Source: a virus. Taken from it: a DNA stretch of 25,420 nucleotides. Location of the stretch: IMG/VR virus record IMGVR_UViG_3300045885_000156, positions 1 to 25,420 of that record. The stretch is one strand, 5' to 3'. Shown one piece after another: positions 5,072-23,513 of the stretch (position 1 is its first letter; each line of letters begins with the position of its first letter). Below the pieces are notes generated by a model, which saw only the letters and a program-made list of their open reading frames with translations, was not told the DNA's origin and made no database searches. Both the position numbers and the translations under genes were made by a program.

Positions 5072-5424
5072 TGCCGCCGCTCGCCGGGCCTCTGCGCGAG
5101 CGCATCACGCTGCAGCGGCTTGATCTCGCGAGCGAGCAGTACCTGCCGATCGCCGAGAGCCCGACGATGGCCGCGGCCGTCGAGCCCATGAGCGACGGCT
5201 CCGGCGAAGAGCGCTACCTGATCCGCATCCGGGCGCGTCCGGATCTGCGCGGCAAGCAGGATCTCTATCCCGCGATGCGCGTGATCTGGCGCGATCGCAC
5301 GCTCGATCTCGAGGACGTCGTCGAGACGGCGCGCAACCGTGAGGTGCATCTCATCGCGTCCGTGCGGCTCATCGAGGTCACGGATCTGCCTTCGGGCGCC
5401 AGGAGGACCCAGAAATGGCCCTAA
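5071..5424 (+). CDS. Head-closure / head-tail joining protein (phage_H_T_join family)
   Basis: This 117-aa protein starts at ATG 5071, overlapping the connector stop by one base, and ends at TAA 5422-5424, overlapping the tail tube gene by ten bases. The fold pattern is recognisable: LAGPLRERITLQRLDLA at the N-terminus, a middle AAAVEPMSDGSGEERYLIRIRARPDL, then YPAMRVIWRDRTLDLEDVVETARNREVHLIASVR. This is a small beta-barrel of the SPP1 gp16 / HK97 gp7 stopper type, usually 100-120 aa. In such phages this ring binds the connector and closes the channel after packaging. Its position between connector and tail proteins supports the call. Confidence 0.85.
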   Translation: MPPLAGPLRERITLQRLDLASEQYLPIAESPTMAAAVEPMSDGSGEERYLIRIRARPDLRGKQDLYPAMRVIWRDRTLDLEDVVETARNREVHLIASVRLIEVTDLPSGARRTQKWP

Positions 5425-5858
5425 GCGACGGCATCGTCTCGAACGGCACCACGCTCCAGGTCGGCGACGGCGCGACGCCCACGGAAGTCTTCACGCCGAT
5501 CGCCGAGGTCGTCGACATCGATCCGCCCGGCGGCGAAGCCGAGGAGGTCGAGTTCACGCACCTCCTTTCCGAGGCGAAGGAGTTCAAGGGCGGCCTGCCT
5601 GACTATGGTGAAGGCACCTTCACCATCAACCTGATCCCCGGCGACACCTCGCAGGAAGGCCTCGAGGACGACGCGCTCGCGAAGCCGGTGCCCACGCGGA
5701 ACTACCGCATCATGTTCCCGGACGCCACGAACGGCCGCGCCTTCGCGGGCTTCGTCAAGATGTTCAAGATCCAGCCCATCGCCATCGACCAGCCGATCCG
5801 CGCGCAGGTCACGCTCCGCGCGAGCGGTCCCGTCACGCGGCTGCCGGCGACGCCATGA
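5415..5858 (+). CDS. Major tail tube protein (lambda gpV / TTP-like)
   Basis: This 147-aa protein forms the hexameric rings of the tail tube. The start ATG 5415 is supported by AGGAGGA (5400-5406) eight bases upstream, although it overlaps the preceding gene. Typical features are SNGTTLQVGDG near the N-terminus, FTPIAEVVDIDPPGGEAEEVEFTHLLSEAKEFKGGLPDYGEGTFTINLIP in the middle (split here across residues 26-76), then RNYRIMFPD and FAGFVKMFKIQ, and finally a strand with VTLRASGPVTRL. This order (IAEV, PG, VEFTHL, KEF, D.GE, IN..P, late tlraSGpV) is characteristic of siphovirus tail tube proteins of 140-160 aa. It overlaps the chaperone start by four bases (ATGA). Confidence 0.88.
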   Translation: MALSDGIVSNGTTLQVGDGATPTEVFTPIAEVVDIDPPGGEAEEVEFTHLLSEAKEFKGGLPDYGEGTFTINLIPGDTSQEGLEDDALAKPVPTRNYRIMFPDATNGRAFAGFVKMFKIQPIAIDQPIRAQVTLRASGPVTRLPATP

Positions 5859-6241
5859 GCCTCCTCAACCGCGAGACGATCCTCAAGGCCGCGGACATCA
5901 AGAGCGAGCGCGTGGCCGTCCCGGAATGGGGCGGCGAGGTCATCGTGCGCGGCCTCTCCGCGCTCGAGCGCGACGGCTACGAGCAGCGCTGCTACGAGAC
6001 GTCCTATGCGAACATCCGCGGCTCGCTCCTGGTGCTCGCACTCGTCGACGAGGCCGGCCATCGGCTCTTCTCGCCCGAGGATCTCGCGGCCATCAGCGCG
6101 AAGAGCGCGGCGCCGCTCGATCGCCTCTTCGATGTCGCGCGCCGGTTGAGCGGGATCGGCCGGCAGGAGCTCAGCGAGCTCCAGGGAAACTCCGCTCCCG
6201 GCCGGAACGGCAGTTCTACTTCCGGCTCGCTGCCCGCCTAG
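5855..6241 (+). CDS. Tail assembly chaperone, short form (gpG-like)
   Basis: This is the normal-frame product, 128 aa, ending at TAG 6239-6241. It should coat the tape measure protein and recruit tail tube subunits during tail assembly, then leave. Residues 1-110 look folded and conserved in style (LNRETILKAADIKSERVAVPEWGGEVIVRGLSALERDGYEQR appears over about residues 4-46), with long predicted helices at LLVLALVDEAGHRLFSPEDLAAIS and LDRLFDVARRLSGIGRQELSELQ. The last 17 residues after the slippery site (SAPGRNGSSTSGSLPA) are low-complexity and look unconstrained, as expected where ribosomes usually shift or end. Position between tube and tape measure genes fits lambda gpG and its many analogues. 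Confidence 0.85.
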   Translation: MSLLNRETILKAADIKSERVAVPEWGGEVIVRGLSALERDGYEQRCYETSYANIRGSLLVLALVDEAGHRLFSPEDLAAISAKSAAPLDRLFDVARRLSGIGRQELSELQGNSAPGRNGSSTSGSLPA

Positions 6242-6465
6242 GGCGCACGGTCGGCGAGCTGCTGGCGACGACCAGCAGCCGGGAGATCAGCGAATGGATG
6301 GCGCTTGATCTGATGGAAGCTGGGCAGACGATCGAATCGCCGCATGCGATCCGTCGCGCTCCCGTCGCGCCGAGCCACGCCCTCGCCGCGCCTGCGCGGC
6401 CGCTCCCCACGCAGGAGCAGCTACGCAAGAAGATCGAGCGCCTCTTCCCGGTGACCAATGGCTGA
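5855..6465 (+). CDS. Tail assembly chaperone, -1 frameshifted long form (gpGT-like, 203 aa)
   Basis: Ribosomes reading 5855 to 6190 can slip back one base at G GGA AAC (6184-6190) and continue from 6190 in the -1 frame to TGA 6463-6465, adding 91 residues to the first 112. The added part has the hallmark of the T domain of phage tail chaperones: RLGRTVGELLATTSSREISEWMALDLME (split: LGRTVGELLA then SSREISEWMALDL), followed by a Pro/Ala-rich linker and a basic helix QLRKKIERLFPVTNG. There is no independent start with a ribosome binding site for this second frame, which supports frameshifting. The long form would link the chaperone to the tail tube subunit. The end overlaps the gp10-like gene by eight bases. 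Confidence 0.85.
6184..6190 (+). other. Programmed -1 ribosomal frameshift slippery site GGGAAAC
   Basis: The heptamer is in the canonical X XXY YYZ phase relative to the frame starting at 5855 (CA-G GGA AAC). It lies 51 bases before the short-frame stop, exactly where the second frame, with T-domain features, becomes available. It differs from the classic lambda G-T site (GGGAAAG) only in the last base. Confidence 0.88.
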
Positions 6466-7000
6466 TGCCGTCACCGTCACGATCAGCGGCTTCCGCGAGC
6501 TCGATGAGGCGCTCCGTCGGCTTCCCGTCGAGGTGCAGACGAAGCTCATGGAGCCGGCGCTCGGCGAGGCCGGCGAGGTCATCCGCCGCGGGATCGTCCG
6601 TCGCATCCGTCGCCGCACGGGCGGCACGGCCGGCTCCGTCGTCGTCGTCGCGCGGGCCCAGGGCCCCACCGGCCTGGTCACCATTGGCGGCTCGACGGGC
6701 AAGGGTACCTCCGGCTTCAAGCTCACCTTCCTCGAGTTCGGGACGAAGGCGAGCACGATCCAAGCGCAGAGCAAGAAGAAGCCGCGGAAGACCTCGCGGA
6801 AGTTCCGCGCCACGAAGTTCGCGCTCGCGGCCCGCGGCTTCGGGCCCGTCGCGAAGGTCGATCATCCGGCCACGGCGGCGCAGTCCCCGATGCGCAAGGC
6901 GCTCAAGGAAGACGGCGACGCCGCCGTGAAGCGGCTCGGACAAGAGCTCTACGACGGCATCGCCGCCTATGCCGAGCGCGTCCCGAAGGGCCAGGCCTGA
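6458..7000 (+). CDS. HK97 gp10-like tail completion / neck protein
   Basis: This 180-aa protein starts at ATG 6458, eight bases inside the chaperone long frame. It shows the HK97-gp10_like family features: an N-terminal VTISGFRELDEALRRLPVEVQTKL, a long helix AGEVIRRGIVRRI with a very basic RRRTGG segment, then KLTFLEFGTKAS (the EFGT motif) and a C-terminal HPATAAQSPMRKALKED corresponding to the family's P-F-x-R-P-A segment. Residues 108-130 are unusually basic (KKKPRKTSRKFRATK). In most HK97-like genomes this gene precedes the tail tube gene; here it lies after the chaperone and before the tape measure. The role is probably at the tail terminator or neck interface. Confidence 0.82.
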   Translation: MADAVTVTISGFRELDEALRRLPVEVQTKLMEPALGEAGEVIRRGIVRRIRRRTGGTAGSVVVVARAQGPTGLVTIGGSTGKGTSGFKLTFLEFGTKASTIQAQSKKKPRKTSRKFRATKFALAARGFGPVAKVDHPATAAQSPMRKALKEDGDAAVKRLGQELYDGIAAYAERVPKGQA

Positions 7001-8322
7001 TGGCGACCATCGGCTCGCTCGTCGTCGACATGCGCGCGAACACGGCGCAGTTCGAGGCGGATATCGGGCGCTCGCGCACTTCGCTGCAGCGCACGGGCGC
7101 GCAGATGAAGTCCACGCAGGAGGCGGCCGTGCGCTTCGCCTCCAAGGGCTTCGGCGAGATCATCGGCGCCTCGGCCGGGGTCGAGCGCGCGCTCGAGAGC
7201 CTCATGCGCACGGCCTTCAGCGCGACCAGAGGCTTCCTGATGATGGGCGGGCAACTAGCGATCATCGTGACCGGCACCCTCGCGGTCGCCGCCGCCGTGC
7301 AGAAGCTCCGCGATCTCATCGGGCAGAAGGTCTTCGGCCTCGAGAGCGAGGAGCAGCGCCTCGAGAAGATGAAGGCCGCGGTCGAGGAGGAGCAGAAGTT
7401 CCAGAAGATCCGCCTCGCGCTCGGCGCCGAAGAGCGGCAGCTGCGGCAGGACATCCTGCAGTCGCAGCTGGAGGCCTCCGCGGCCTTTCAGAAGTCGATC
7501 GGCGACGAGGCGGGCGCTCGCGAGACGGCGCTCCAGGCCGAGCTCGCCGGAATCGAGGCCGCCCGCGCCGCCGAGATCCGCAAGATCACCGAGCTCGGCG
7601 CGACGGGTGAGCAGCGGCGGCAGCTCGAGACGCTCGCGAACCAGAAGGCGCTCAACGAGCGCGTCGCCGCGCAGACGAAGGCCGCCGTCGATCTGCAGCG
7701 CATCGAGGCCGAGCGCTCCGCGAAGTTGATGCAGACATGGGCCAGAGAAACGGAAGTCTTCATCGCCGATCTCGAGCGGCGGCACAAGATCCGCCAGGAC
7801 ATCGAGGCGCGTGCCGCCGCCGCGGCCGAGCGCCTCGGCATCGCCGAGGTCCTCTCGCAATTCAAGAAGGTCGAGGAGCTCAAGAAGGGCGCGCAGGAGG
7901 TCGCCGCCGGTTTCGCCTTGATGCTCGACAAAGGCGTGCCGCTGCGTGATCTCCTCCCGGAGATGGCGAAGGCCTCGGCGCAGTTCGGCGAGAAAGTGCG
8001 CGCCATGCGCCAGGAGGCCGCCGGCAGCCCGGCCGTCCTCGATAAGATGGATCGCGAGCTTTCGGACATCAGCTGGGGCGACTTCATCACGCTCACGGAG
8101 CAGGCGCGCGTCTCGATGCAGAATGCGCGCGTCGATACGGCCTCGCTCGCCGCAGATACGCATGCGCTCAATCAGCGCATCGGTGAGATGCCGATCGGCA
8201 TCAATCGCGCCGTCCCGGAGATCGACAAGCTCGTCGGCCGCTTCCGCCTGATTCAGATGTGGGCTGATGCCGCGGCGCGCTCCGTCAACAACCTCGATAT
8301 CGTCATCGATCGATCGCAATAG
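7000..8322 (+). CDS. Tail tape measure protein (short, 440 aa)
   Basis: The product is almost wholly helical. It begins with the pattern common to tape measure proteins, IGSLVVDMRANTAQFEADIGRSRTSLQ (split across residues 4-30). A hydrophobic stretch at about 77-100 (FLMMGGQLAIIVTGTLAVAAAV) may be the membrane-inserting part. Residues 115-290 form long charged coiled coils (SEEQRLEKMKAAVEEEQ, LQRIEAERSAKLMQTW, DLERRHKIRQDIEARA). At the usual ratio of about 0.15 nm per residue, the tail would be roughly 65 nm, short for a siphovirus. I see no lytic transglycosylase or peptidase domain in it. The start ATG 7000 overlaps the preceding stop by one base (TGATG). Its place after the chaperone agrees with the call. 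Confidence 0.85.
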   Translation: MATIGSLVVDMRANTAQFEADIGRSRTSLQRTGAQMKSTQEAAVRFASKGFGEIIGASAGVERALESLMRTAFSATRGFLMMGGQLAIIVTGTLAVAAAVQKLRDLIGQKVFGLESEEQRLEKMKAAVEEEQKFQKIRLALGAEERQLRQDILQSQLEASAAFQKSIGDEAGARETALQAELAGIEAARAAEIRKITELGATGEQRRQLETLANQKALNERVAAQTKAAVDLQRIEAERSAKLMQTWARETEVFIADLERRHKIRQDIEARAAAAAERLGIAEVLSQFKKVEELKKGAQEVAAGFALMLDKGVPLRDLLPEMAKASAQFGEKVRAMRQEAAGSPAVLDKMDRELSDISWGDFITLTEQARVSMQNARVDTASLAADTHALNQRIGEMPIGINRAVPEIDKLVGRFRLIQMWADAAARSVNNLDIVIDRSQ

Positions 8323-8524: not shown

Positions 8525-9277
8525 ATGTCGGTCACGCTCTTCGCGCGGAACCTGCTCGAGGAAGGCACGGTGACCGGCCCGGCGCTCGCCGGCTATCCGC
8601 TCACGCGCCTCTTCGATCGGGACCGTGGCCAGCAATGGCGCGCGACGGCCGCGGCGCCGGTCACCATTGCGCTCGATGCGGGCGCGCCCGTGACGGCCTC
8701 GGCCTTTGCGATCGCGCATCACAACCTCGGCGGCTCCACGATCGGCGTCCTCACGTCCGCGGATGGGAGCAGCTACGTCGCGGCCGGCTCCGGAGCGCCG
8801 GACGTCGGCGCCGTCGACGTGATCGCGTTCACGGAGGCGACGTCGCGCTACTGGGCCTTCACGATCCCCGCCGTGGGGGAGGCGCAGATCGGCGAGCTCC
8901 TGCTGGGCACCCCGCTCGAGTTCCCCACGCCCGAGCTCGCGCCAGACTATATCGATCGTGTGCTCGCCAACGTGCAGCGGGATCGCTCACCCGGTGGCTA
9001 CTCGTGGACCGTGAAGCGCGGGCCCGCGCGCCGGGAGTTTCGCTTCGGCTGGACCACGCTGAGTGCGGGCGACGTCGACCGCTTGATCCAGGCGTACACC
9101 GAGGCCGCGGAAGGCGCCAAGCGCCTGGCCTACGTCGATCCCTGGGGCGTCGGCTGGTGGGTCGAATTCGTCGAGGACGCCCTCTCGATCGGGCTCGGCC
9201 GCGCGGCGACGGGCGCCGAGCCCGCGGCGCCCAACGTGACCCAGGCGGCGACGATCACGCTCCAGGAAGCGCTCTAG
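8525..9277 (+). CDS. Distal tail (Dit)-like protein with discoidin-like N-terminal domain
   Basis: This 250-aa protein follows the tape measure and precedes the hub, where siphophages carry the distal tail protein that caps the tube. Residues 1-135 look like a jelly-roll/discoidin-type module (YPLTRLFDRDRGQQWRAT, LDAGAPVTASAFAIAHHNL, IGVLTSADGSSYVAA, SRYWAFTIPAVGEAQIGELLLG), a fold often used for sugar binding or for virion contacts. Residues 155-250 (REFRFGWTTLSAGDVDRLIQAY, RLAYVDPWGVGWWVEFVEDAL) resemble the second half of tail-tip proteins, where a short beta domain contacts the hub. I recognise the type of protein rather than a named family, so the Dit call rests largely on position. ATG 8525 abuts the preceding stop. 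Confidence 0.6.
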   Translation: MSVTLFARNLLEEGTVTGPALAGYPLTRLFDRDRGQQWRATAAAPVTIALDAGAPVTASAFAIAHHNLGGSTIGVLTSADGSSYVAAGSGAPDVGAVDVIAFTEATSRYWAFTIPAVGEAQIGELLLGTPLEFPTPELAPDYIDRVLANVQRDRSPGGYSWTVKRGPARREFRFGWTTLSAGDVDRLIQAYTEAAEGAKRLAYVDPWGVGWWVEFVEDALSIGLGRAATGAEPAAPNVTQAATITLQEAL

Positions 9278-9278
9278 C

Positions 9279-12200
9279 GTGAAGGCGCTCACCGCGGCGA
9301 CCAGCGTGATCACCCAGCGCGCGTGGACCGCGCCCGCGCTCTTCGCGCAGCTCGAGTTCACGTCGCCGTCGCCCTTCACGCTCCGGATCTCCGACCGCTA
9401 CCGCGAAGCCTTCGGCCACCAGTGGCTTCCCCTCGTGGCGGATTGGGGCTCCGTCGAGAACGTGCTGAACACCCTGGACCTGGGCGGCCGCCCCGCCACG
9501 GCAGAGTTTGGGCTCAACAACGACGTGCCCGTGGAGGGCACCGGCAAGGCGCGCCTGTCCGACATGATCCGCACGCCGTTCAATCAGACGGCGGGCGCGT
9601 ACGAGTGGGCGTTCGCGAAGGTGATCATCACGAAGCTCGTCGACGAACGGCTCGGAAGCGACGACGTCATCGGGCTCGGCGAGTTCTACCTGGAAGATCC
9701 GACGGAGATCGACGACCACGTCCTGCGCGTCCGCATGGTCGACGCCACGCTCGCCCTGGAGGATCGCATCCAGCTCACCCGCGTGACGCGCATCAGTTTC
9801 CCGCTCGCCGATCCCGACGCGGTCGGCCGCGCGATCCCGATCCCCTTCGGCGTGCTCACGAACGTACCGACGCTCAACGTCGTGGCGGGCGCGCTCTCGA
9901 CGCTCTCGGCGGCGATCACCGCGGCCAGCCCCGGCGTCGGCGGCGTCCTCCCCGTGAGCGATACGGCGCTCTTCCCGGCCGCGGGCACCGTGCAGATCGA
10001 CGACGAGCAGATCGCCTATTCGTCAAAGACGTCGGACGGCCTGGTGATCAGCGCGCGGCCCTTCGCGGCGCGGGCGGCGCACTCGCAGGGCGCGACCTTG
10101 TGGGAAGTCCGGAGCGGCGCGCAGGCGTACCGCTACATCGTCGGCGAGAACCGCGGCGCCTTCAAGATCGCGGCGGTGACGAACGTCCGCGCGGGCGGCG
10201 TCCTCCAGCCCGGCGCCACCGTCAACCTCGACGACACGAGCCTCATGCCCGGGCGCTCCTTCGCGGTCATCAACTTCAGCGACCTTCCCGTCATCAGGAA
10301 GGACGTCGTTCTCGACGTCGTCGACACGATCGACGTGGCCGACACCATCGACGTCGCGGATACGATCGACGTGGCGGATACGATCGACGTCGCGGACACG
10401 ATCGGCGTCGCCGACACCATCCACGTCAACGACACGATCGGCGTCGGTGACGGCATCCACATCTTCGACAACATCGGCGTGACCTCGCCGTCCGTGACGA
10501 CGGCGGTGCGGCTCGGCACGAACATCCCGCTGCAGATCACGGCCACTCTTGGCGGTAGCGGCGGTCAGTTCAGCGCGACGGGCACGATCCTGATGCCGGC
10601 GCCGCCAGCCGGCGGGATCATCAACGTGAATCGCTCCATCACCTATCGCGTCCTCACGTCGTCCATCGCGACAAGCGCCTGGAGCTTCATCCGCTCGGGC
10701 GGCGTGGTCATGGAATCCGGCTCCATCTTCCCCGCCGTCGGGCTCCGTCCTCAGTTCAAATACGGCAGCGGCCCTGTCTATGGTGCCGAAACCTTCACGA
10801 TCGCGGGCACGGGCGCCAGCGGCGGCGGCACGATCACCGTGCAGATCGACGCCTTCGACGAGGCCGTCGAGAGCGGAGTGATCGTGCAGAAGAGCGGCTC
10901 GGCCTTCCGCACGGGCGCCGCGACGAAGGTGGGCGCGGCGACGAAGAGCGGCCTCGCCACGAAGACGGGCCTCGCGGACAAGGTCGGCCTCGCGGACAAG
11001 GTCGGCACGGCCGACAAGGTGGGGATCGCGGCGAAGGTCGGCACCGTCACGCTCGTCGGCAACTCGACGGCCGACGTCATCATCGGCGACGTGACGTGCG
11101 ACGTGCTCGGGCTCCGCGACGACGGCGCGGGCACGATCACCGGCACCGCGGCCGCGCTGATCGCCAACCCGTCCGACGTGACCAAGGCCATCCTGCTCTC
11201 GTGCTTCCCCGGCATCACGACGGCCCAGTTTGGGGCGACGTGGGCGGTCACGCGCGCGCAGCTCGCGGGCTTTCAGTGGGCGATGCTGCTCGAGTACCTG
11301 CGCTTCTCGGAGTTCCGCGAGCTCGTCGGCGCCCAGGCGCGCGCCGTGCTCTACCTCGAGGGCGGCAAGTGGGAGTTCCGGTTTGTGCCCGACGCGCCCA
11401 CGCCGTCGCTCGTGCTCGACTACGAGCGCGACGTGGCGGTCGATCCCGTCGCGCGCGTGGGGCGCACGCCGCTCGTCGAGTTGAAGACCTCGTTGTGGGT
11501 GTACTCGCGCCGCGACTACCGCAAGAGCGGGAGCCCTGAAGACGAGTACGCGCGCGCCGTCAATGTGAAGGACCTCACCGCGGGCGTGAGCGACGAGATC
11601 CAGGAATCGGTGACGCTCCCCTTCGTGCAGCATGAGGCGACGGCCGACGCGCTCGCGGCCTGGCACCTCGCGCGGCGCAAGCGACAGCGCCTCACGCTCT
11701 CCGTCACCGCCTGGTGGAACGTCATCGGACTCGAGCAGGCCGATTTCGTCGCGATCGACGGGCACCCGATTCTCGCCGCGCACGGCGGCGTGGATCTCGT
11801 CTTTCAGGTCACGCGCCGCCGCTACGCGATCGGCGACGACACGAACGCCGGGCGGATCGCGCTCGACCTCGTGCAGCTTCCCGTGCAGCCGACAAAGGCG
11901 CGCCTCCTCACCCCGGAGCCCGGCACGATGCTTCCACCAGGAACCTCGGTGCCCTTCACCTGGTCGGCGGGCTTCGATGTCACGGCCTACCAGTTGTGGC
12001 TCGGCAGCACGCCGGGCGGGTCGGACTACTACTCAAGCGGCCTCACCGGCGCGCTCGGCGCAACGGCCACGCTTCCGGCGTTCACGACGCCGGGCGTGGT
12101 CTACGTGACGCTCGGCTCGCAATTCAGCTCGGGCGAGTCGGAAGCCAACGCCTACACCTACGCGCGGCACTACACGATCACCGGCACCGCCGGCGTCGTG

Positions 12201-12575
12201 GCGCCCCTCGGCGAGCTCGCCGGCGCCGGCGCCGCGGGCGCCTCGGGCTCGGGCGGCGTGCTCGCACCCCTCGGCGAGCTCTCAGGCGCCGGTCTACTCT
12301 TCGTCACGGGCTCGGGCGGCGTCGAGGCGCCGATTGGCGCGATCGAGGGCGGCGAGAAGTTCTGGATCGGCGCTGACACGGATCGCTTCTGGGCCGGCGA
12401 CGACGCCGACACCTTCTGGGGCCGCGGCCGCCCGCGCGATCGCGCCGCGATCACCGCGCCGCTCGGCGCTCTGGCGGGCGCGGGCACCGTCATCAATCCG
12501 GACTTCTGGGCCGGTGACGATACGGATCTCTACTGGGGCGGCGCCGATAGCGGGCCGTTCTGGGGCGTCGTCTAA
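9279..12575 (+). CDS. Large tail hub / tail tip protein with two hexapeptide repeat arrays (1098 aa)
   Basis: GTG 9279 starts the largest gene of the genome, one base after the Dit-like stop. Residues 1-340 are beta-rich tail-tip sequence (for example FTLRISDRYREAFGHQW, RVRMVDATLALEDRIQL, VQIDDEQIAYSS). Residues 349-401 are an array of about nine DTIxVA hexapeptides. Residues 402-545 form a serine/glycine/threonine-rich beta domain. Residues 546-593 are eight units of a second hexapeptide, G-x-A-x-K-V. Residues 600-870 resemble a baseplate hub (WAMLLEYLRFSEFRELVGAQ, LYLEGGKWEFRFVPD, VTAWWNVIGLEQADFVAIDG). Residues 880-970 look fibronectin type III-like. The C-terminus repeats APLGELAGAG and FWAGDD motifs. 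It is likely the central tip protein that contacts the host; receptor binding is inference. Confidence 0.8.
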   Translation: MKALTAATSVITQRAWTAPALFAQLEFTSPSPFTLRISDRYREAFGHQWLPLVADWGSVENVLNTLDLGGRPATAEFGLNNDVPVEGTGKARLSDMIRTPFNQTAGAYEWAFAKVIITKLVDERLGSDDVIGLGEFYLEDPTEIDDHVLRVRMVDATLALEDRIQLTRVTRISFPLADPDAVGRAIPIPFGVLTNVPTLNVVAGALSTLSAAITAASPGVGGVLPVSDTALFPAAGTVQIDDEQIAYSSKTSDGLVISARPFAARAAHSQGATLWEVRSGAQAYRYIVGENRGAFKIAAVTNVRAGGVLQPGATVNLDDTSLMPGRSFAVINFSDLPVIRKDVVLDVVDTIDVADTIDVADTIDVADTIDVADTIGVADTIHVNDTIGVGDGIHIFDNIGVTSPSVTTAVRLGTNIPLQITATLGGSGGQFSATGTILMPAPPAGGIINVNRSITYRVLTSSIATSAWSFIRSGGVVMESGSIFPAVGLRPQFKYGSGPVYGAETFTIAGTGASGGGTITVQIDAFDEAVESGVIVQKSGSAFRTGAATKVGAATKSGLATKTGLADKVGLADKVGTADKVGIAAKVGTVTLVGNSTADVIIGDVTCDVLGLRDDGAGTITGTAAALIANPSDVTKAILLSCFPGITTAQFGATWAVTRAQLAGFQWAMLLEYLRFSEFRELVGAQARAVLYLEGGKWEFRFVPDAPTPSLVLDYERDVAVDPVARVGRTPLVELKTSLWVYSRRDYRKSGSPEDEYARAVNVKDLTAGVSDEIQESVTLPFVQHEATADALAAWHLARRKRQRLTLSVTAWWNVIGLEQADFVAIDGHPILAAHGGVDLVFQVTRRRYAIGDDTNAGRIALDLVQLPVQPTKARLLTPEPGTMLPPGTSVPFTWSAGFDVTAYQLWLGSTPGGSDYYSSGLTGALGATATLPAFTTPGVVYVTLGSQFSSGESEANAYTYARHYTITGTAGVVAPLGELAGAGAAGASGSGGVLAPLGELSGAGLLFVTGSGGVEAPIGAIEGGEKFWIGADTDRFWAGDDADTFWGRGRPRDRAAITAPLGALAGAGTVINPDFWAGDDTDLYWGGADSGPFWGVV
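10323..10481 (+). repeat. 18-bp coding tandem repeat array 1 (hexapeptide DTIDVA)
   Basis: Eight full 18-bp units and one partial unit encode DTIDVA x4, DTIGVA, DTIHVN, DTIGVG, DGIHIF and DNIGV. The first four units encode the same peptide with third-position differences (GAC/GAT, ACG/ACC, GTG/GTC, GCC/GCG), so the peptide is conserved while the codons have drifted. The array lies between two beta domains of the tail hub. Confidence 0.92.
10914..11057 (+). repeat. 18-bp coding tandem repeat array 2 (hexapeptide GLADKV)
   Basis: Eight 18-bp units encode GAATKV, GAATKS, GLATKT, GLADKV, GLADKV, GTADKV, GIAAKV and GTVTLV. Units four and five are identical at DNA level (GGCCTCGCGGACAAGGTC), pointing to a recent duplication. 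The array has the same six-residue period as array 1 but a basic instead of an acidic character. Confidence 0.92.
12199..12530 (+). repeat. C-terminal APLGxLxGAG and FWAGDD repeats of the tail hub
   Basis: The last 130 residues of the hub hold four versions of an APLG/APIG motif (VAPLGELAGAG, LAPLGELSGAG, EAPIGAIEGG, TAPLGALAGAG) and repeated short motifs FWAGDDADTFWG and FWAGDDTDLYWG. They look like glycine-rich turns alternating with aromatic strands, suited to trimeric fibre tips or to attaching the next fibre protein. Confidence 0.75.
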
Positions 12576-15688: not shown

Positions 15689-15841
15689 ATGGCGCGGCCC
15701 GCGTGGGACCCCGACACTCCTGTCTTCTCCGACGACGCGATCGACGAAAGCAATGCGCCGGAATTGCGCTGGCCCGCGATCGCCGCCGCCTTGGCCCGAT
15801 CCGCCGCGCGCGCCGAGCGCAGGAGAGATCCCGATGAGTAA
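15689..15841 (+). CDS. Small hypothetical protein (50 aa)
   Basis: ATG 15689 lies directly after the stop of the zinc-ribbon gene and the frame ends at TAA 15839-15841, eight bases into the next gene. The protein is acidic at first (DPDTPVFSDDAIDESNAPEL) and basic at the end (ARSAARAERRRDPDE). Its 3' end contains the ribosome binding site AGGAGAG (15821-15827) of the next gene. No family is recognised; translation is plausible from the tight packing. Confidence 0.45.
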   Translation: MARPAWDPDTPVFSDDAIDESNAPELRWPAIAAALARSAARAERRRDPDE

Positions 15842-16964
15842 GGCCGACGTGATCCCCGACACCGCCCGGCCCGAGGCCCTCGTGGTGGTGCGCCCGGACG
15901 GCGGGCCGTCCTTCCTGGAGCGCTGGATTCACGGCGATCCGTCGCAGGCGCTCGCGCGCGTCGATGCGATGACCGCCGTGCTCGAGCGCCTGCGCTTGAA
16001 GGCGATCCAGCAGACCTGGCCGAGCGACTGGGTCATCCAGGCCTCGGTGAAGGACGGCGTGGTGCAGCACCAGACCGGCTACCTGCAGGACATCGGCTGC
16101 GATCGCGCGGGCAAGGTCTACGGCATCGTGGTCGGCGAGCCCATCGTCCATCGGGAGGATCTCCCCGACGGCACCTACGTCTACGAGCTGCAAGCGCGCG
16201 CGAGCTCGTACGTCACGCACGAGACCATCGAGACGTGCTTCGGCTCGCGCTGGAGTGGCGACACCTTCTTCGTGCGCCAGCTCAAGGACCCCGACGACAA
16301 GGTCGACCCGACCGACGTCAAGAAGGCCGCCTACGCCAACCTGCACGGCCGCGCCGTGCGGGCCCTCGGCGGCCTCGCCGGCGTGCCCCTGGAGGCCCTG
16401 GAGGCGGCCGGCCTCGACATCAAGCGCTGCCGCTACGTCGGCTACGAGCAGGGCGTGCGGGGCGGGACTTCCGTCGGCGCGAGCACGGGCGCCGCCGACC
16501 TGGTGGTCCGCTTCGGCCGAGCCAGCGGCAAGAAGCCCAGCGAGCTCGAGGCCAAGGATCTCGACTGGTACATCGACGCGCTCAAGCGCAACCTCGCCGA
16601 CCCCGCGCGCGAGCGCTTCAGGAAGCAGGACGAGCCCATCTACCGCGCCCTCCTGGCCGAGCGCGAGGCGCGCGACCAGAAGAAGGCGCACGAGGCGGCG
16701 ACGGGGCCGAGCGCGCCGGAGGAGACCGGGGAGATCCCCGCGAACCGCGGCGGGCGCATCGCCATGCTCAACGCGCGCATGCTCACCGCCGCCACGGAGC
16801 AGCGCAAGGTCCTACCATTGCTGCGCCAGCTCACCCAGGAGCTCTTCGACAAGGAGTCGGGCAGCTTCCAGGACCTCGCCGACGAGCAGCTCGAGGCGCT
16901 CCTGCACATCGACCCGGCCGACCTCGCGCGCCTGCAGGCCTCCCTCGACAAGCCGAAGCCATGA
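15834..16964 (+). CDS. Conserved phage protein of the recombination module (376 aa)
   Basis: ATG 15834 is six bases after AGGAGAG. The central part (residues 50-200) reads RLKAIQQTWPSDWVIQASVK, GYLQDIGCDRAGKVYGIVVGEP, DGTYVYELQARAS, IETCFGSRWSGDTFFVR, and VDPTDVKKAAYANLHGRAVRALGGLAGVPLEALEAAGLD. I have seen this arrangement (SGAE-like start, G.Y.Y, SS.D.FF, D..DVKK.A..N....R.LGL) in phage proteins encoded beside PD-(D/E)XK nucleases. The C-terminal 150 residues are helical and charged. The function is unassigned. By neighbourhood (coiled-coil protein and Cas4-like nuclease next) a single-strand annealing or recombination-mediator role is the best guess. The stop overlaps the next start (ATGA). 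Confidence 0.8.
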   Translation: MSKADVIPDTARPEALVVVRPDGGPSFLERWIHGDPSQALARVDAMTAVLERLRLKAIQQTWPSDWVIQASVKDGVVQHQTGYLQDIGCDRAGKVYGIVVGEPIVHREDLPDGTYVYELQARASSYVTHETIETCFGSRWSGDTFFVRQLKDPDDKVDPTDVKKAAYANLHGRAVRALGGLAGVPLEALEAAGLDIKRCRYVGYEQGVRGGTSVGASTGAADLVVRFGRASGKKPSELEAKDLDWYIDALKRNLADPARERFRKQDEPIYRALLAEREARDQKKAHEAATGPSAPEETGEIPANRGGRIAMLNARMLTAATEQRKVLPLLRQLTQELFDKESGSFQDLADEQLEALLHIDPADLARLQASLDKPKP

Positions 16965-17674
16965 CCACACCGCTCTCGATGGCGCTCGTGGTCCCGACCG
17001 ACGACCCGGCGGTGGTCGCGATCCGCGGCAAGATCGCCACGCTCGCACGCGAGTGCGAAGCCGTCGAGGTGATCGGCGCCGAGTCGAAGGAGGCCGCCGT
17101 CAACGTCCTCAGCGCGATCGCGCGCGCGAAGACCGAGGCCGACCGTGCGCGCCTCGGCTTCGTGACCCCGCTCAAGCAGTACACGAGTGGCGTCGACAAG
17201 CTCTTCCGCGAGCTCCTCGCGCCCATCGTGCAGGCCGACCAGGTCGTGCGCCGGAAGCTCCTGGACTACGACCGCGCGGAGAAGGCGCGGCTGGCCGAGG
17301 CCGAGGCCCAGGCCGAGCGCGAGCGCCTGCGCAGCGCCGCCCTGCTGAAGGAGGCGACGAAGGCCGACACCGCCGGCGAGGCGCACGTGGCCGACGAGCT
17401 CCTCGAGCAAGCGGCCGGCGCCGAAACGAACGCGCACAACGCCGCCAAGGTCGCCGCCGTGCCGCCGCCGCCGCGCACGTTCTCGACGCCGTTCGGCGCC
17501 AGCGCGACCACGCGGCGCGTGTGGACCTACGAGGTCGTGGATCCGGCGCTCATCCCGCGCGAGTACCTCATCCCCGATGCGATGCGCCTGCAGCGCGAGG
17601 TCAACGCCGGCCTCCTGCGCGAGCTCCCCGGCCTGCGCATCTTCGAGCGCGAGACGCTCTCGGTGCGGTCGTGA
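16961..17674 (+). CDS. Coiled-coil phage protein, DUF1351-like in style (237 aa)
   Basis: ATG 16961 overlaps the preceding stop as ATGA, and the stop overlaps the nuclease start as GTGA. Residues 25-165 are a long coiled coil (ALVVPTDDPAVVAIRGKIATLA, then LDYDRAEKARLAEAEAQAERERLRSAALL read in parts). A Pro-rich linker (VPPPPRTFST) follows. The C-terminal 55 residues (RRVWTYEVVDPALIPREYL, AMRLQREVNAGLLRELPGLRIFERETLSVR) match the small globular end found in phage coiled-coil proteins that accompany RecT-type annealing proteins and exonucleases. It probably bridges or scaffolds the recombination complex; the exact role is unknown. Confidence 0.82.
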   Translation: MTTPLSMALVVPTDDPAVVAIRGKIATLARECEAVEVIGAESKEAAVNVLSAIARAKTEADRARLGFVTPLKQYTSGVDKLFRELLAPIVQADQVVRRKLLDYDRAEKARLAEAEAQAERERLRSAALLKEATKADTAGEAHVADELLEQAAGAETNAHNAAKVAAVPPPPRTFSTPFGASATTRRVWTYEVVDPALIPREYLIPDAMRLQREVNAGLLRELPGLRIFERETLSVRS

Positions 17675-18687
17675 AGCGCGACGCCGGCCAGCTCCTCATC
17701 ACCGACGTCGACGCTGAGGCCGCCGTCACGACCGAGGGCTTCGATGCGCTCGCACGCCAGCACCTCAAGGCCGACATCCAGGTCTGGCCCGCCCGCGCGT
17801 TCTACCCGAGCACCCTCGCGCACCCGTGCGATCGCCACCTCGTCTGGCGCTTCACGAAGTGGAAGCAGCAGATCCCGCACGAGGTCGAGCTCGAGAGCAT
17901 CTTCCACGAGGGGCGCCTGCACCAGCCCGACATCTACCGCCGCCTGGAGGCCATGGGCTTCGAGGTCGTGCGCGAGCAGGACCGGCCCACGCAGTACCAG
18001 GTCGGCCGCGCCGTGATCTCGGGCCGCCCCGATGGGCGCCTCATCGCCTTCCGCGGCACGCGCTACCCGAAGCCGGGCCTCATCCTCGAGGCGAAGTCCA
18101 TGGCCGGGTATCAGTGGGACCGCACCGCGACCGTCGACGACCTGCGCGCCGCCGAGAGCCACTGGACGCGCGCCTACTACGCCCAGGGCCAGCTCTACGG
18201 CTTCCTCGAGAACGCCGCCCGCGGGGTCTTCGTCCTCAAGAGCAAGGCGACCGGCATGCTCAAGCTCCTGCCCTACGAGCTCGACTACGAGTACGCCGAG
18301 GTGCTCCTGCAGCGCATCGAGCGCCTGCAGCCGCTCATCGAGCGCGGGGAAGATCCGCCGCCCATCCCCTACGACCGCTCAGTCTGCGGCGGGTGCGGCT
18401 TCCGCGAGATCTGCTATCCCGCCAAGGCCTTCGGCGAGGGCGCCAGCGTCCTCGATGACCCGCTCCTCGAGGCCGCGCTCGAGCGTCGCGATGCGCTCGC
18501 GGTCGAGCACGCCGAGTACGAGCGCCTCGACCGCGAGGTCAAGGACCGCCTCAAGCACGAGGGCATCAAGTTCGCCCTCTGCGGGCCGTTCACCATCGAA
18601 GGCAAGGTCGTCGCGAAGAAGGCCTACCAGGTCGCCGCGCACGAGGAGATCCACTACTCCATCGATCGGCAGGAGGAGGGCGGGTGA
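17671..18687 (+). CDS. PD-(D/E)XK exonuclease, RecB/Cas4-like with Fe-S cysteines
   Basis: This 338-aa nuclease starts at GTG 17671. Its catalytic core is visible: GRLHQ at 81-85, SGRPDG with Asp121, LILEAKS with Glu140 and Lys142, and the helix YYAQGQLYGFL with Gln174 (the motif that follows the active site in RecB-type nucleases). Cys53 (HPCDR) together with Cys239, Cys242 and Cys248 (CGGCGFREIC) would ligate a 4Fe-4S cluster as in Cas4 and AddB. The C-terminal 80 residues are a charged helix then a beta segment. It likely resects DNA ends for phage recombination with the two upstream proteins. No CRISPR array or other cas gene is present, so it is not a CRISPR component here. It carries AGGAGGAGGG (18671-18680) for the next gene. 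Confidence 0.88.
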   Translation: MKRDAGQLLITDVDAEAAVTTEGFDALARQHLKADIQVWPARAFYPSTLAHPCDRHLVWRFTKWKQQIPHEVELESIFHEGRLHQPDIYRRLEAMGFEVVREQDRPTQYQVGRAVISGRPDGRLIAFRGTRYPKPGLILEAKSMAGYQWDRTATVDDLRAAESHWTRAYYAQGQLYGFLENAARGVFVLKSKATGMLKLLPYELDYEYAEVLLQRIERLQPLIERGEDPPPIPYDRSVCGGCGFREICYPAKAFGEGASVLDDPLLEAALERRDALAVEHAEYERLDREVKDRLKHEGIKFALCGPFTIEGKVVAKKAYQVAAHEEIHYSIDRQEEGG

Positions 18688-19337
18688 AGGCGTCTCTCGC
18701 CGAGCTTCCTGGAGTCGCGCGGGCGAAACTTCCCGCGAGCTACGAAGGCGCGCGTGAGGCGCTCGACAAGTGCCAGCGCATCGACGAGTGCCAGACGTGG
18801 GCGGACAAGGCCGAGGCACTCGCGTCCTACGCGAAGCAGGCCGAGGACGACGGGCTGCGCAAGATGGCCGACCGCATCCAGGCGCGCGCGGTCCGCCGCT
18901 GCGGCGAGCTCCTGCGCGCCATCGAGGCCGCCGCCAATCAGCACCGTGCTAGGGGAGGCGGTCCCCCTAGCAGAGCTCAGGCGGCGCGTGACGCGGGCCT
19001 CTCGCGCGACCAGAAACGCAACGCGATGCGCGTGGCCGCGGTGCCGCGCGAGGAGTTCGAGGCCGCCGTGGAATCCGACGATCCGCCGACCGTGACGCAG
19101 CTCGCCGAGCAGGGTACGAAGCGCGTCCTGGTCGACCTCGGCGGGCGCGATCCCGCCGACTTCCAAGTCGCGACCCATGCGCTCGGCGCCCTACGCCAGC
19201 TCGCGGAGTTCGCGCAGCGGACGGATCCCGCAGCGGTACGCCGAGGCTCCTTCGATCGGGAGCGGAAGGCGATGGCCGCGAACGTGGACGTGATTCTCGA
19301 CTGGCTGGCCCGACTAACGATGGAGATCGGCAGATGA
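18684..19337 (+). CDS. Phage DNA-metabolism-type protein, unknown (217 aa)
   Basis: GTG 18684 overlaps the nuclease stop (GTGA) and has a strong AGGAGGAGGG just before it. The sequence YEGAREALDKCQRIDECQTWADKAEALASYAKQAED, then MADRIQARAVRRCGELLRAIE, matches a helical N-terminal pattern common in proteobacterial phages and plasmids (RAERRLGELL motif). The middle (RAQAARDAGLSRDQKRNAMRVAAVP) is HTH-like, and SDDPPTVTQLAEQGTKR follows. No enzyme motif is seen. DNA binding or a partition/replication-linked role is plausible. An 8-bp inverted repeat lies inside it at 18948-18971. The stop overlaps the next start (ATGA). Confidence 0.75.
   Translation: MKASLAELPGVARAKLPASYEGAREALDKCQRIDECQTWADKAEALASYAKQAEDDGLRKMADRIQARAVRRCGELLRAIEAAANQHRARGGGPPSRAQAARDAGLSRDQKRNAMRVAAVPREEFEAAVESDDPPTVTQLAEQGTKRVLVDLGGRDPADFQVATHALGALRQLAEFAQRTDPAAVRRGSFDRERKAMAANVDVILDWLARLTMEIGR
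18948..18971. repeat. Perfect hairpin GCTAGGGG / CCCCTAGC inside a gene
   Basis: GCTAGGGG (18948-18955) and CCCCTAGC (18964-18971) are perfect inverted repeats around an 8-base loop. CTAG occurs in both arms, a tetramer that is typically rare in GC-rich genomes. It codes for an Ala-Arg-Gly-Gly-Gly-Pro-Pro-Ser stretch that looks like a linker between two helical parts of the protein. Confidence 0.8.
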
Positions 19338-23022: not shown

Positions 23023-23513
23023 AGCCGGCTGAGCTCAAGCGCCAGGTCGAGGCCCTGGTCGCCGTTCGCTCGTGGGAGCGCGTCGAGGATGGCTACCTCG
23101 TGCACGGCTACCTCGAGCACAACCAGAGCGCACGGCAGGTCGAGGCGGACCGGCAGGCCTCGAAGGATCGCTACCGTAAGTGGAGGGACCAACGCAGTGA
23201 CAACGCCGTTGGCAACGCCGCAGCCAACGGCGTTGCAGCGCCGCTGCAAACGGATCTATCAGTCAGTCAGTCAGTCAGTCATAGGTTCTTAGAACCTCCT
23301 GAAGTCTCTACGCGAAGTAAGCCCCGCGCGACTTCGCGCGCTCAATCCGGCGCGTCGGGGATTGCTATCGCATCCCGATCGACCATCGAACCAGCCCAAG
23401 AACCGCGCGAAGCCACTGACGCGGAACTGCAAATAATTGCAGACGCGATGGGCATTTCCCTCGAGGAAGCGCGCGAACGACAGGCCGACGCGCGCAGGCG
23501 AGGCAGCGCGTGA
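22857..23513 (+). CDS. Replication-initiator-like protein (218 aa)
   Basis: ATG 22857 is preceded by AAGGTGAG (22844-22851). Residues 1-105 match the winged-helix N-terminal pattern of phage replisome organiser / DnaD-DnaT-type proteins: MAWSRFEPGFSRHPKRIKAG, SWLWIASVDHCTEFRTDGFL, LKRQVEALVAVRSWERVEDGYLVHGYLEHNQS. A basic segment follows (KDRYRKWRDQ). Residues 115-150 are a low-complexity linker whose DNA is dense in inverted repeats and CAGT repeats. The C-terminus ends with EEARERQADARRRGSA. In lambda and related phages the origin lies inside the initiator gene, which fits here. The initiator role is inferred from pattern and from the DNA, and no helicase or polymerase gene accompanies it. 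Confidence 0.72.
   Translation: MAWSRFEPGFSRHPKRIKAGPVASWLWIASVDHCTEFRTDGFLDDAAVATLCPTLKPAELKRQVEALVAVRSWERVEDGYLVHGYLEHNQSARQVEADRQASKDRYRKWRDQRSDNAVGNAAANGVAAPLQTDLSVSQSVSHRFLEPPEVSTRSKPRATSRAQSGASGIAIASRSTIEPAQEPREATDAELQIIADAMGISLEEARERQADARRRGSA
23201..23340. other. Candidate replication origin: cluster of inverted repeats and CAGT repeats
   Basis: Within 140 bases there are a perfect 13-bp inverted repeat (23201-23213 with 23223-23235), an overlapping 17-bp palindrome TTGCAGCG-C-CGCTGCAA (23233-23249), 5.5 copies of CAGT (23260-23281), a 15-bp palindrome AGGTTCT-T-AGAACCT (23283-23297), and CGCGCGA-CT-TCGCGCG (23325-23340). The DNA codes for the linker of the initiator-like protein, where protein constraint is weak, so selection on the DNA is likely. 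Confidence 0.5.
23260..23281. repeat. Tetranucleotide microsatellite (CAGT)5.5
   Basis: Five full CAGT units plus CA within the coding sequence of the initiator-like gene. A change in copy number would shift the frame and cut off the C-terminal 75 residues. Confidence 0.92.

Follow-up and report, generated by a model that had tools for sequence, protein, structure and literature searches.

Two hexapeptide arrays of matched number and antiparallel register in a phage tail hub: candidate arms of one hairpin stalk

Described tail hubs and the two arrays of the window

Among the closest described counterparts of the protein analyzed here are the tail hubs of phages T5 (pb3) and lambda (gpL and gpJ), both of which are trimers (PMC10038345, PMC10721106). 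Lambda J contains an FNIII-A domain inserted at residues 72-215 (PMC10721106), and the insertion of T5 pb3, a plug, refolds into a hairpin leg reaching the outer membrane after receptor binding (PMC10038345); the accessible sections of the two papers mention neither repeat arrays nor a variable stalk. A six-stranded needle is described for the tip of T4 gp37 (PMC7291167). Here we analyze a tail hub gene in a 25,420-base virus record (IMG/VR IMGVR_UViG_3300045885_000156, GC 69.6%), hereafter the window, whose predicted product has the four-domain core of the T5 and lambda hubs, with domain insertions in HDII. The hub contains two arrays of hexapeptides, the acidic array 1 (A1) and the basic array 2 (A2), located on either side of a tip domain. 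Across relatives, the two arrays have equal unit counts in most proteins, covary in antiparallel register and show covariation of charge pairs in that register. Because the unit counts match one to one and the units covary in antiparallel register, we conclude that A1 and A2 very probably form one hairpin stalk with an exchangeable tip, A1 being the outgoing arm and A2 the returning arm, and not two stalks. The features of the gene are as follows (pLDDT, predicted local distance difference test).

9279-12575, + strand: tail hub gene, predicted lambda L-like and J-like hub in a single chain (open frame and AlphaFold core matches)
9279-10322, + strand: hub N-terminal part, HDI-like and then HDII-insertion-like domain with the VQIDDEQI motif (pLDDT mostly 80-94; fold matches)
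10323-10484, + strand: A1, nine acidic hexapeptides with consensus D-T-I-x-V-x; proposed outgoing arm, covarying antiparallel with A2
10485-10886, + strand: tip domain of 134 residues, predicted beta-rich (strands at residues 418-532, pLDDT about 50-63); putative receptor or surface contact
10887-11048, + strand: A2, nine basic hexapeptides, x-K-x-G-x-A/V; proposed returning arm (unit counts and covariation)
11049-11888, + strand: hub C-terminal core, probable remainder of HDII, HDIII and HDIV (pLDDT mostly 75-95; profile alignments)
11889-12575, + strand: hub C-terminal tail with APLGELAGAG-like and FW-x-G-x-DTD repeats (sequence; pLDDT mostly <55)

Both arrays are encoded within the single open frame (1098 amino acids, GTG start). 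A1 occupies residues 349-402 (DTIDVA four times, DTIGVA, DTIHVN, DTIGVG, DGIHIF and DNIGVT), and its Tandem Repeats Finder (TRF) score of 165 is the maximum of the window, so a chance origin of the repeat is not an issue. A2 occupies residues 537-590 (QKSGSA, FRTGAA, TKVGAA, TKSGLA, TKTGLA, DKVGLA, DKVGTA, DKVGIA and AKVGTV), its nine units being those of an indel-tolerant counter and including two degenerate first units. The original prediction, made from the letters of the window, had proposed two distinct hexapeptide arrays within the hub, and the single open frame, TRF and the AlphaFold hub fold bear this out. Its count of nine for the DTIDVA array is correct, A2 has nine units in place of the eight it gave, and the domain between the arrays measures 134 residues, not 145. 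The opposite charge it noted is found across the family (net charge per residue over 65 proteins: −0.22 for A1, +0.12 for A2). Its further statement, that A1 codons drift while A2 holds two DNA-identical units, also agrees with our comparison: no A1 unit is DNA-identical to another (best pair 17/18), and A2 has exactly one identical pair (LADKVG units 5 and 6, in the register of the codon comparison).

The dN/dS values against L002, a relative with 86% identity, are 0.086/0.43 for A1, 0.139/0.44 for A2 (in a register shifted four residues further on) and 0.063/0.49 for the N-terminal hub; judged against this relative, the arrays evolve like the remainder of the hub gene. By the position tables, one face has D, I and V of A1 and K, G and A/V of A2, and the opposite face has T/S, an alternation that would suit strands around a core. 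A long antisense frame (10023-11783) also runs across the arrays; its translation is Arg- and Asp-rich and it looks like an ordinary GC-rich shadow.

Unit numbers and register across relatives

A first search identified ten loci, including L002, with unit numbers of 9 and 9, and the next nearest relatives L003 and L004 (49% and 42% identical in the best segment), which have neither array. Absence from all close relatives, named by the original prediction as evidence against its proposal, is therefore not what we find. A pattern of two consecutive D-T-I-x-V-x codon units was sought in 2.9 million viral contigs and occurred in 70, of which 50 have at least three good A1 units. In 37 of these 50 the contig extends at least 500 codons downstream; 33 of the 37 have a clear in-frame A2 and one a weak A2, and most good A1 arrays sit in the same hub type with A2 downstream. 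Further relatives were added by hub-based patterns outside the arrays and from bacterial genomes, mainly deltaproteobacterial metagenome-assembled genomes. Removal of near-duplicates reduced 113 open frames with both arrays to 65, and four of these, whose contigs end in or just after A2, were left out of the count set (n = 61).

Loci retrieved with hub patterns lying outside the arrays (n = 136; 98 non-redundant contigs) were used to score joint presence. The hub stretch following A2 is shown by 63 contigs (both arrays, 44; neither, 17; only A1, 1; only A2, 1) and is not shown by the other 35 (neither, 22; both, 7; only A1, 3; only A2, 3). Three loci have irregular frames or ends. In L054 (5916-6445, reverse complement) A2 is in a different frame from A1, and in L003 (about 8900-10300) the second half of the hub, without arrays, is in another frame, each reflecting a sequence error or a broken gene. 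At positions 1-120 of L057, a contig cut at its 5′ end, A1 leads straight into what remains of the A2 end, without a tip.

Both arrays change length together across relatives. Units were counted separately in each array by position-specific scores for each unit type, with single-residue insertions allowed, and a constant T-L-x-G-N-S end unit was removed before the final count. A1 and A2 unit numbers in the 61 non-redundant proteins range from 2 to 20 and are correlated with a Pearson r of 0.985 (slope 1.005, intercept 0.05). Counts are equal in 49/61 proteins (permutation mean 5.4, maximum 18 in 100,000) and within one unit in 58, three differing by more than one; without L107 and L002, 47/59 are equal (r = 0.984). 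Tip length is uncorrelated with unit number (rho = −0.08), and independent contrasts, computed on a hub tree from which stalk and tip were excluded, give an r of 0.96 between A1 and A2 and 0.06 for tip length. Among 21 sister pairs, A1 differs in 17, with A2 changing in the same direction in 15 of those and by the identical amount in 10; neither array differs in the remaining four. L134/L035 (3 and 3 to 4 and 4) and L218/L086 (7 and 7 to 8 and 8) kept related tips (78% and 64% identical). Seven new proteins from later searches served as a hold-out, of which four have equal counts and all seven agree within one unit. The original prediction had proposed comparing unit numbers across related phages and had suggested that the length of A2 may vary; it does vary among relatives, though not freely, as both arrays change together.

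Equal lengths might arise if the arrays were unstructured linkers lengthened by slippage, with a shared slippage rate or inheritance as a single cassette keeping them alike. AlphaFold gives low-confidence coil for both arrays, and many sister pairs have tips that differ far more than their hubs, suggesting exchange of whole cassettes. Shared slippage, however, predicts correlation and not equality at a slope of 1.0 over 2-20 units, and L134/L035 and L218/L086 each changed both arrays by one unit with a related tip kept. As linkers of this kind also predict neither register-specific covariation nor the matched loss of acid and base described below, we regard them as very improbable.

Unit-pair tests were carried out on 40 indel-free proteins whose arrays have the same count of three units or more (299 unit pairs), comparing the summed mutual information of A1 and A2 units with that obtained by shuffling A2 units within each protein. 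Antiparallel register 0, in which A1 unit i faces A2 unit n+1−i, gave a z of 14.1 in the first run and of 17.2, 13.4 and 8.7 in a rerun with 0, 1 and 2 end units trimmed, and antiparallel offsets of one or two units gave a weaker signal. The corresponding values for parallel register 0 are 2.4, −0.4 and 0.1; parallel pairing of A1 and A2 was rejected, z being near zero once the ends are trimmed.

Charge covaries in the same register. An acid at A1 position 1 and a base at A2 position 2 of the facing unit are both present in 273 pairs, with acid only in 10, base only in 0 and neither in 16, such that the facing A2 unit has no basic residue in 16/16 cases of A1 acid loss; the odds ratio of this pairing in the parallel register is 0.69. 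Without the near-duplicate L107 the table reads 264, 9, 0 and 12, and 0/20,000 within-protein shuffles reach 12; with end units trimmed it reads 190, 8, 0 and 9, and 5/20,000 shuffles reach 9. In L083, every A1 DLMTIL lies opposite an A2 DRSGTI, and a three-unit block recurs in register in both arms. In the window, A1 units 2-4 (DTIDVA) are opposite DKVG units and A1 units 5-9 are opposite T/F/Q-K/R units. The arrays are two GC-rich repeat tracts on one transcript, which raises pairing of their mRNA as a source of the covariation. The A1:A2 duplex energy in the window (−119.3) is ordinary, however, with 35/100 codon-shuffled versions of A2 pairing equally well or better, and the covariation is seen in residues, charge included; a nucleic-acid effect is almost certainly not the explanation.

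Counts and covariation also bear on the possibility of two separate stalks, one made of A1 and one of A2, each a homotypic trimeric beta-structure or solenoid, with the two placed alongside each other or stacked. The equal period and the trimeric hub type are compatible with this arrangement, in which either array could associate with copies of itself, yet it predicts neither a one-to-one unit number across the tip nor covariation of unit i with n+1−i. Comparison of 17 stalk fragments with Pfam at an E of 0.1 gave no hexapeptide-solenoid match, and we consider two stalks improbable. A stalk profile likewise had no match in the PDB (best E 0.14). Left-handed beta-helix hexapeptide repeats resemble the arrays in their six-residue period and branched hydrophobic positions, whereas those repeats stack locally in one chain and the array units pair across about 130 residues. 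The original prediction had envisaged paired structures extending a separate domain, for instance two stalks; the pairing is supported by counts and covariation, and the data favour one antiparallel hairpin over the two stalks.

A proposed hairpin stalk and its possible assembly

In the proposed hairpin, the chain would leave the hub as A1, fold the tip domain and return as A2, with each A1 hexapeptide opposite one A2 hexapeptide, first unit against last. The acid at A1 position 1 would lie beside the base at A2 position 2, and I/V and A/V residues would pack together. Unit number would set the distance of the tip from the hub, and the numbers in A1 and A2 would be equal and change together because the arms must end together. 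The arms probably have beta-strand geometry; if the strands are axial, stalk length would be about 2 nm per unit, or about 18 nm in the window and 4-40 nm in the family. The antiparallel coiled-coil arms of SMC/Rad50 are likewise equal arms that flank an apical domain and zip antiparallel, whereas they consist of alpha-helical heptads and the array units are hexapeptides with what appears to be beta-type alternation.

Since the hub is trimeric in T5 and lambda, the arms of three hub copies may join into one six-stranded trimeric needle, an assembly that we favour somewhat over others. An HxH motif is found at one fixed place after A1 in 41/65 proteins and nearby in one more (42/65), as compared with any HxH in 1.7% of random 21-residue stretches. 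HxH is a metal motif of trimer axes, and its fixed place after A1 would fit a metal on the three-fold axis. The gp37 chain of T4 runs out and back along its needle, where several HxH motifs bind iron. Like gp37 (collar, needle, head), the window stalk would have out-and-back arms, here indicated by covariation, and an end domain; gp37 is a fibre end, whereas the window stalk is a hub insertion, and the several HxH along the gp37 needle contrast with the single one that follows A1 in most relatives and with the lack of any HxH in the window. We know of no hexapeptide arrays or matched unit counts in gp37.

In a sub-case of the hairpin, each hub copy would have a two-stranded leg of its own, giving three separate legs in place of one needle. 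T5 pb3, to which the hub fold is closest, makes beta-hairpin legs from an HDII insertion (PMC10038345). Covariation is blind to pairing within a chain versus between chains. With two strands and up to 20 hexapeptide pairs, however, such a hairpin would be expected to have no core, the fixed HxH would better fit a three-fold axis, and the stalk site, by interpolation only, seems to differ from the pb3 plug site in the HDII-insertion. Separate legs are the less likely alternative to the needle. Our fuller proposal, a new architecture of a six-stranded trimeric needle built from two register-locked hexapeptide alphabets, with 2-20 units, coupled arrays and a length selected to the thickness of the host surface layer, is tentative.

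Several observations weigh against a hairpin with matched arms. Counts are unequal in 12/61 proteins, among which L036 and L219 (6 vs 9) look like true exceptions, and some counts hinge on the treatment of the end unit. The indel-tolerant count before T-L-x-G-N-S removal gives 26/61 equal (r = 0.976), and a plain in-register counter gives 35/61 (r = 0.88), or 42/61 (r = 0.91) in its extended version. The hold-out spans 2-5 units only, and three of its seven proteins share the same two arrays. The 16 acid-less units stem from seven proteins, two of them near-duplicates, and so represent few independent events. A pooled test of A1 position 5 against A2 position 6 is also strong in the parallel register (odds ratio 5.2) because pooled tables ignore the composition of each protein, and we therefore rely on within-protein shuffles. 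The window itself has no HxH. AlphaFold2, run on single chains with 34 (full hub) and 17 (stalk fragment) aligned sequences, left most of both arrays without predicted strands, at a pLDDT of about 35-50 in the full hub and about 41-50 in the stalk fragment (predicted template modelling score, pTM, 0.25). The original prediction had held that a trimer model with disordered linkers would speak against paired structures, and by that rule the low-confidence coil of both arrays would do so, the hub core being ordered and the arrays not, in a monomer model that allows no check of a trimer. In our assessment, the covariation evidence outweighs the uncertain single-chain prediction of the arrays.

With A1 unit i opposite A2 unit n+1−i, contacts would be readable from repeat counts and unit identity. 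The family would form a natural ladder of phage stalks of 2-20 units, in which one can ask how length is set, how two arrays remain equal as they evolve, and whether reach is matched to the surface of the host. The repeat code could also test structure predictors, which at present fail on the stalk. A full-text search of mostly open-access literature, judged by titles and the openings of abstracts, found no description of paired arrays in a tail hub, an absence that is not proof.

Tip domain, hub fold and neighbouring genes

The tip is far more divergent than the hub in several sister pairs. Identity in the N-terminal part of the hub is 77% for L072/L157, as against 27% in the tip; L006/L083 have 76-81% in the hub and 28% in the tip, and L018/L041 have an identical 280-residue hub C-terminal part and tips that are 34% identical. 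Tips are closer in other pairs (L001/L002, 84%; L107/L093, 97%). This pattern suggests that the tip undergoes exchange or fast divergence, as expected of a host-contact domain, and the tip is a putative receptor or surface binding domain. The plan of hub, stalk and tip would be modular, with tips that diverge and a stalk code that stays. A Pfam search with the tip domain gave no match, and homology between the window tip and the stalkless L004 is not significant (E 0.12).

The AlphaFold model of the full hub has a mean pLDDT of 66, with most of the hub core at 75-95. Its best structural match by VIA-align is T5 pb3 (Z 18.3, root-mean-square deviation 3.5, 490 residues aligned), followed by lambda J (Z 15.5), JBD30 (14.5), phage Chi (14.2), the gene transfer agent GTA (13.7) and T4 gp27 (11.3), and hub residues 1-163 match lambda gpL (Z 14.0). 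Profile alignments of the C-terminal core reach lambda J 328-482 (E 1e-3) and T5 pb3 573-714 (E 4e-3). On the predicted structure, the gene is a gp27-type tail hub with the T5 pb3/lambda J fold. Because the core matches T5 pb3 and lambda J and residues 1-163 match gpL, the model indicates that the lambda L and J parts are merged in one chain, as in T5 pb3. The stalk lies near the lambda J FNIII-A insertion site, an approximate position interpolated from structural and profile alignments.

Pfam PF13550 (Phage-tail_3) matches the window hub below the gathering cutoff (17.6 bits vs 23, E 0.0038) and 7/34 relatives at an E of up to 0.01 (best 1.4e-8); a PHROG search with the window hub gave no match, nor did tblastn of the window hub against INPHARED phages. 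L005 matched nine Pelagibacter phages, only across the VQIDDEQI-type domain, and L007 matched none. Proteins that are otherwise unlike share this domain (9891-10103 in the window, hub residues about 205-275); its carriers include nine Pelagibacter phage 'tail tube B' records and many genomes of a phylum survey; in that survey (395 genomes of one phylum), 26 had matches, most of them confined to the VQIDDEQI-type domain. At the other end of the hub, TRF reports a 63-bp period at 12204-12322 in the C-terminal tail. The stretch 12204-12575 carries APLGELAGAG-like and FW-x-G-x-DTD-x-YW repeats, and the alignment consensus shows a WGDSDT-like ending in some relatives.

Genes for portal, protease, major head, adaptor and major tail proteins lie upstream of the hub, in that order. 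The major tail gene (5415-5858), a chaperone gene (5855-6241) and a weak tape-measure match (7000-8322, E 0.035) are all upstream of the hub, and the gene order fits the tail hub identity. Within 5855-6465, another frame (5926-6465) overlaps the chaperone frame, and the overlap may mark a programmed frameshift of the kind present in other siphophages. The record also encodes an integrase and a terminase. An 810-amino-acid frame (16255-18687) has a Cas4-like exonuclease match limited to residues 519-726 and is overlapped by a frame without a match (15753-16964). The frame at 18684-19337 strongly matches PHROG 33995 (function unknown) and also has a marginal match to an AbiEi antitoxin C-terminal domain (22.8 bits, cutoff 22.2). 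A perfect TCAG tetranucleotide tract of 5.8 copies (23259-23281) adjoins another repeat region at 23190-23253.
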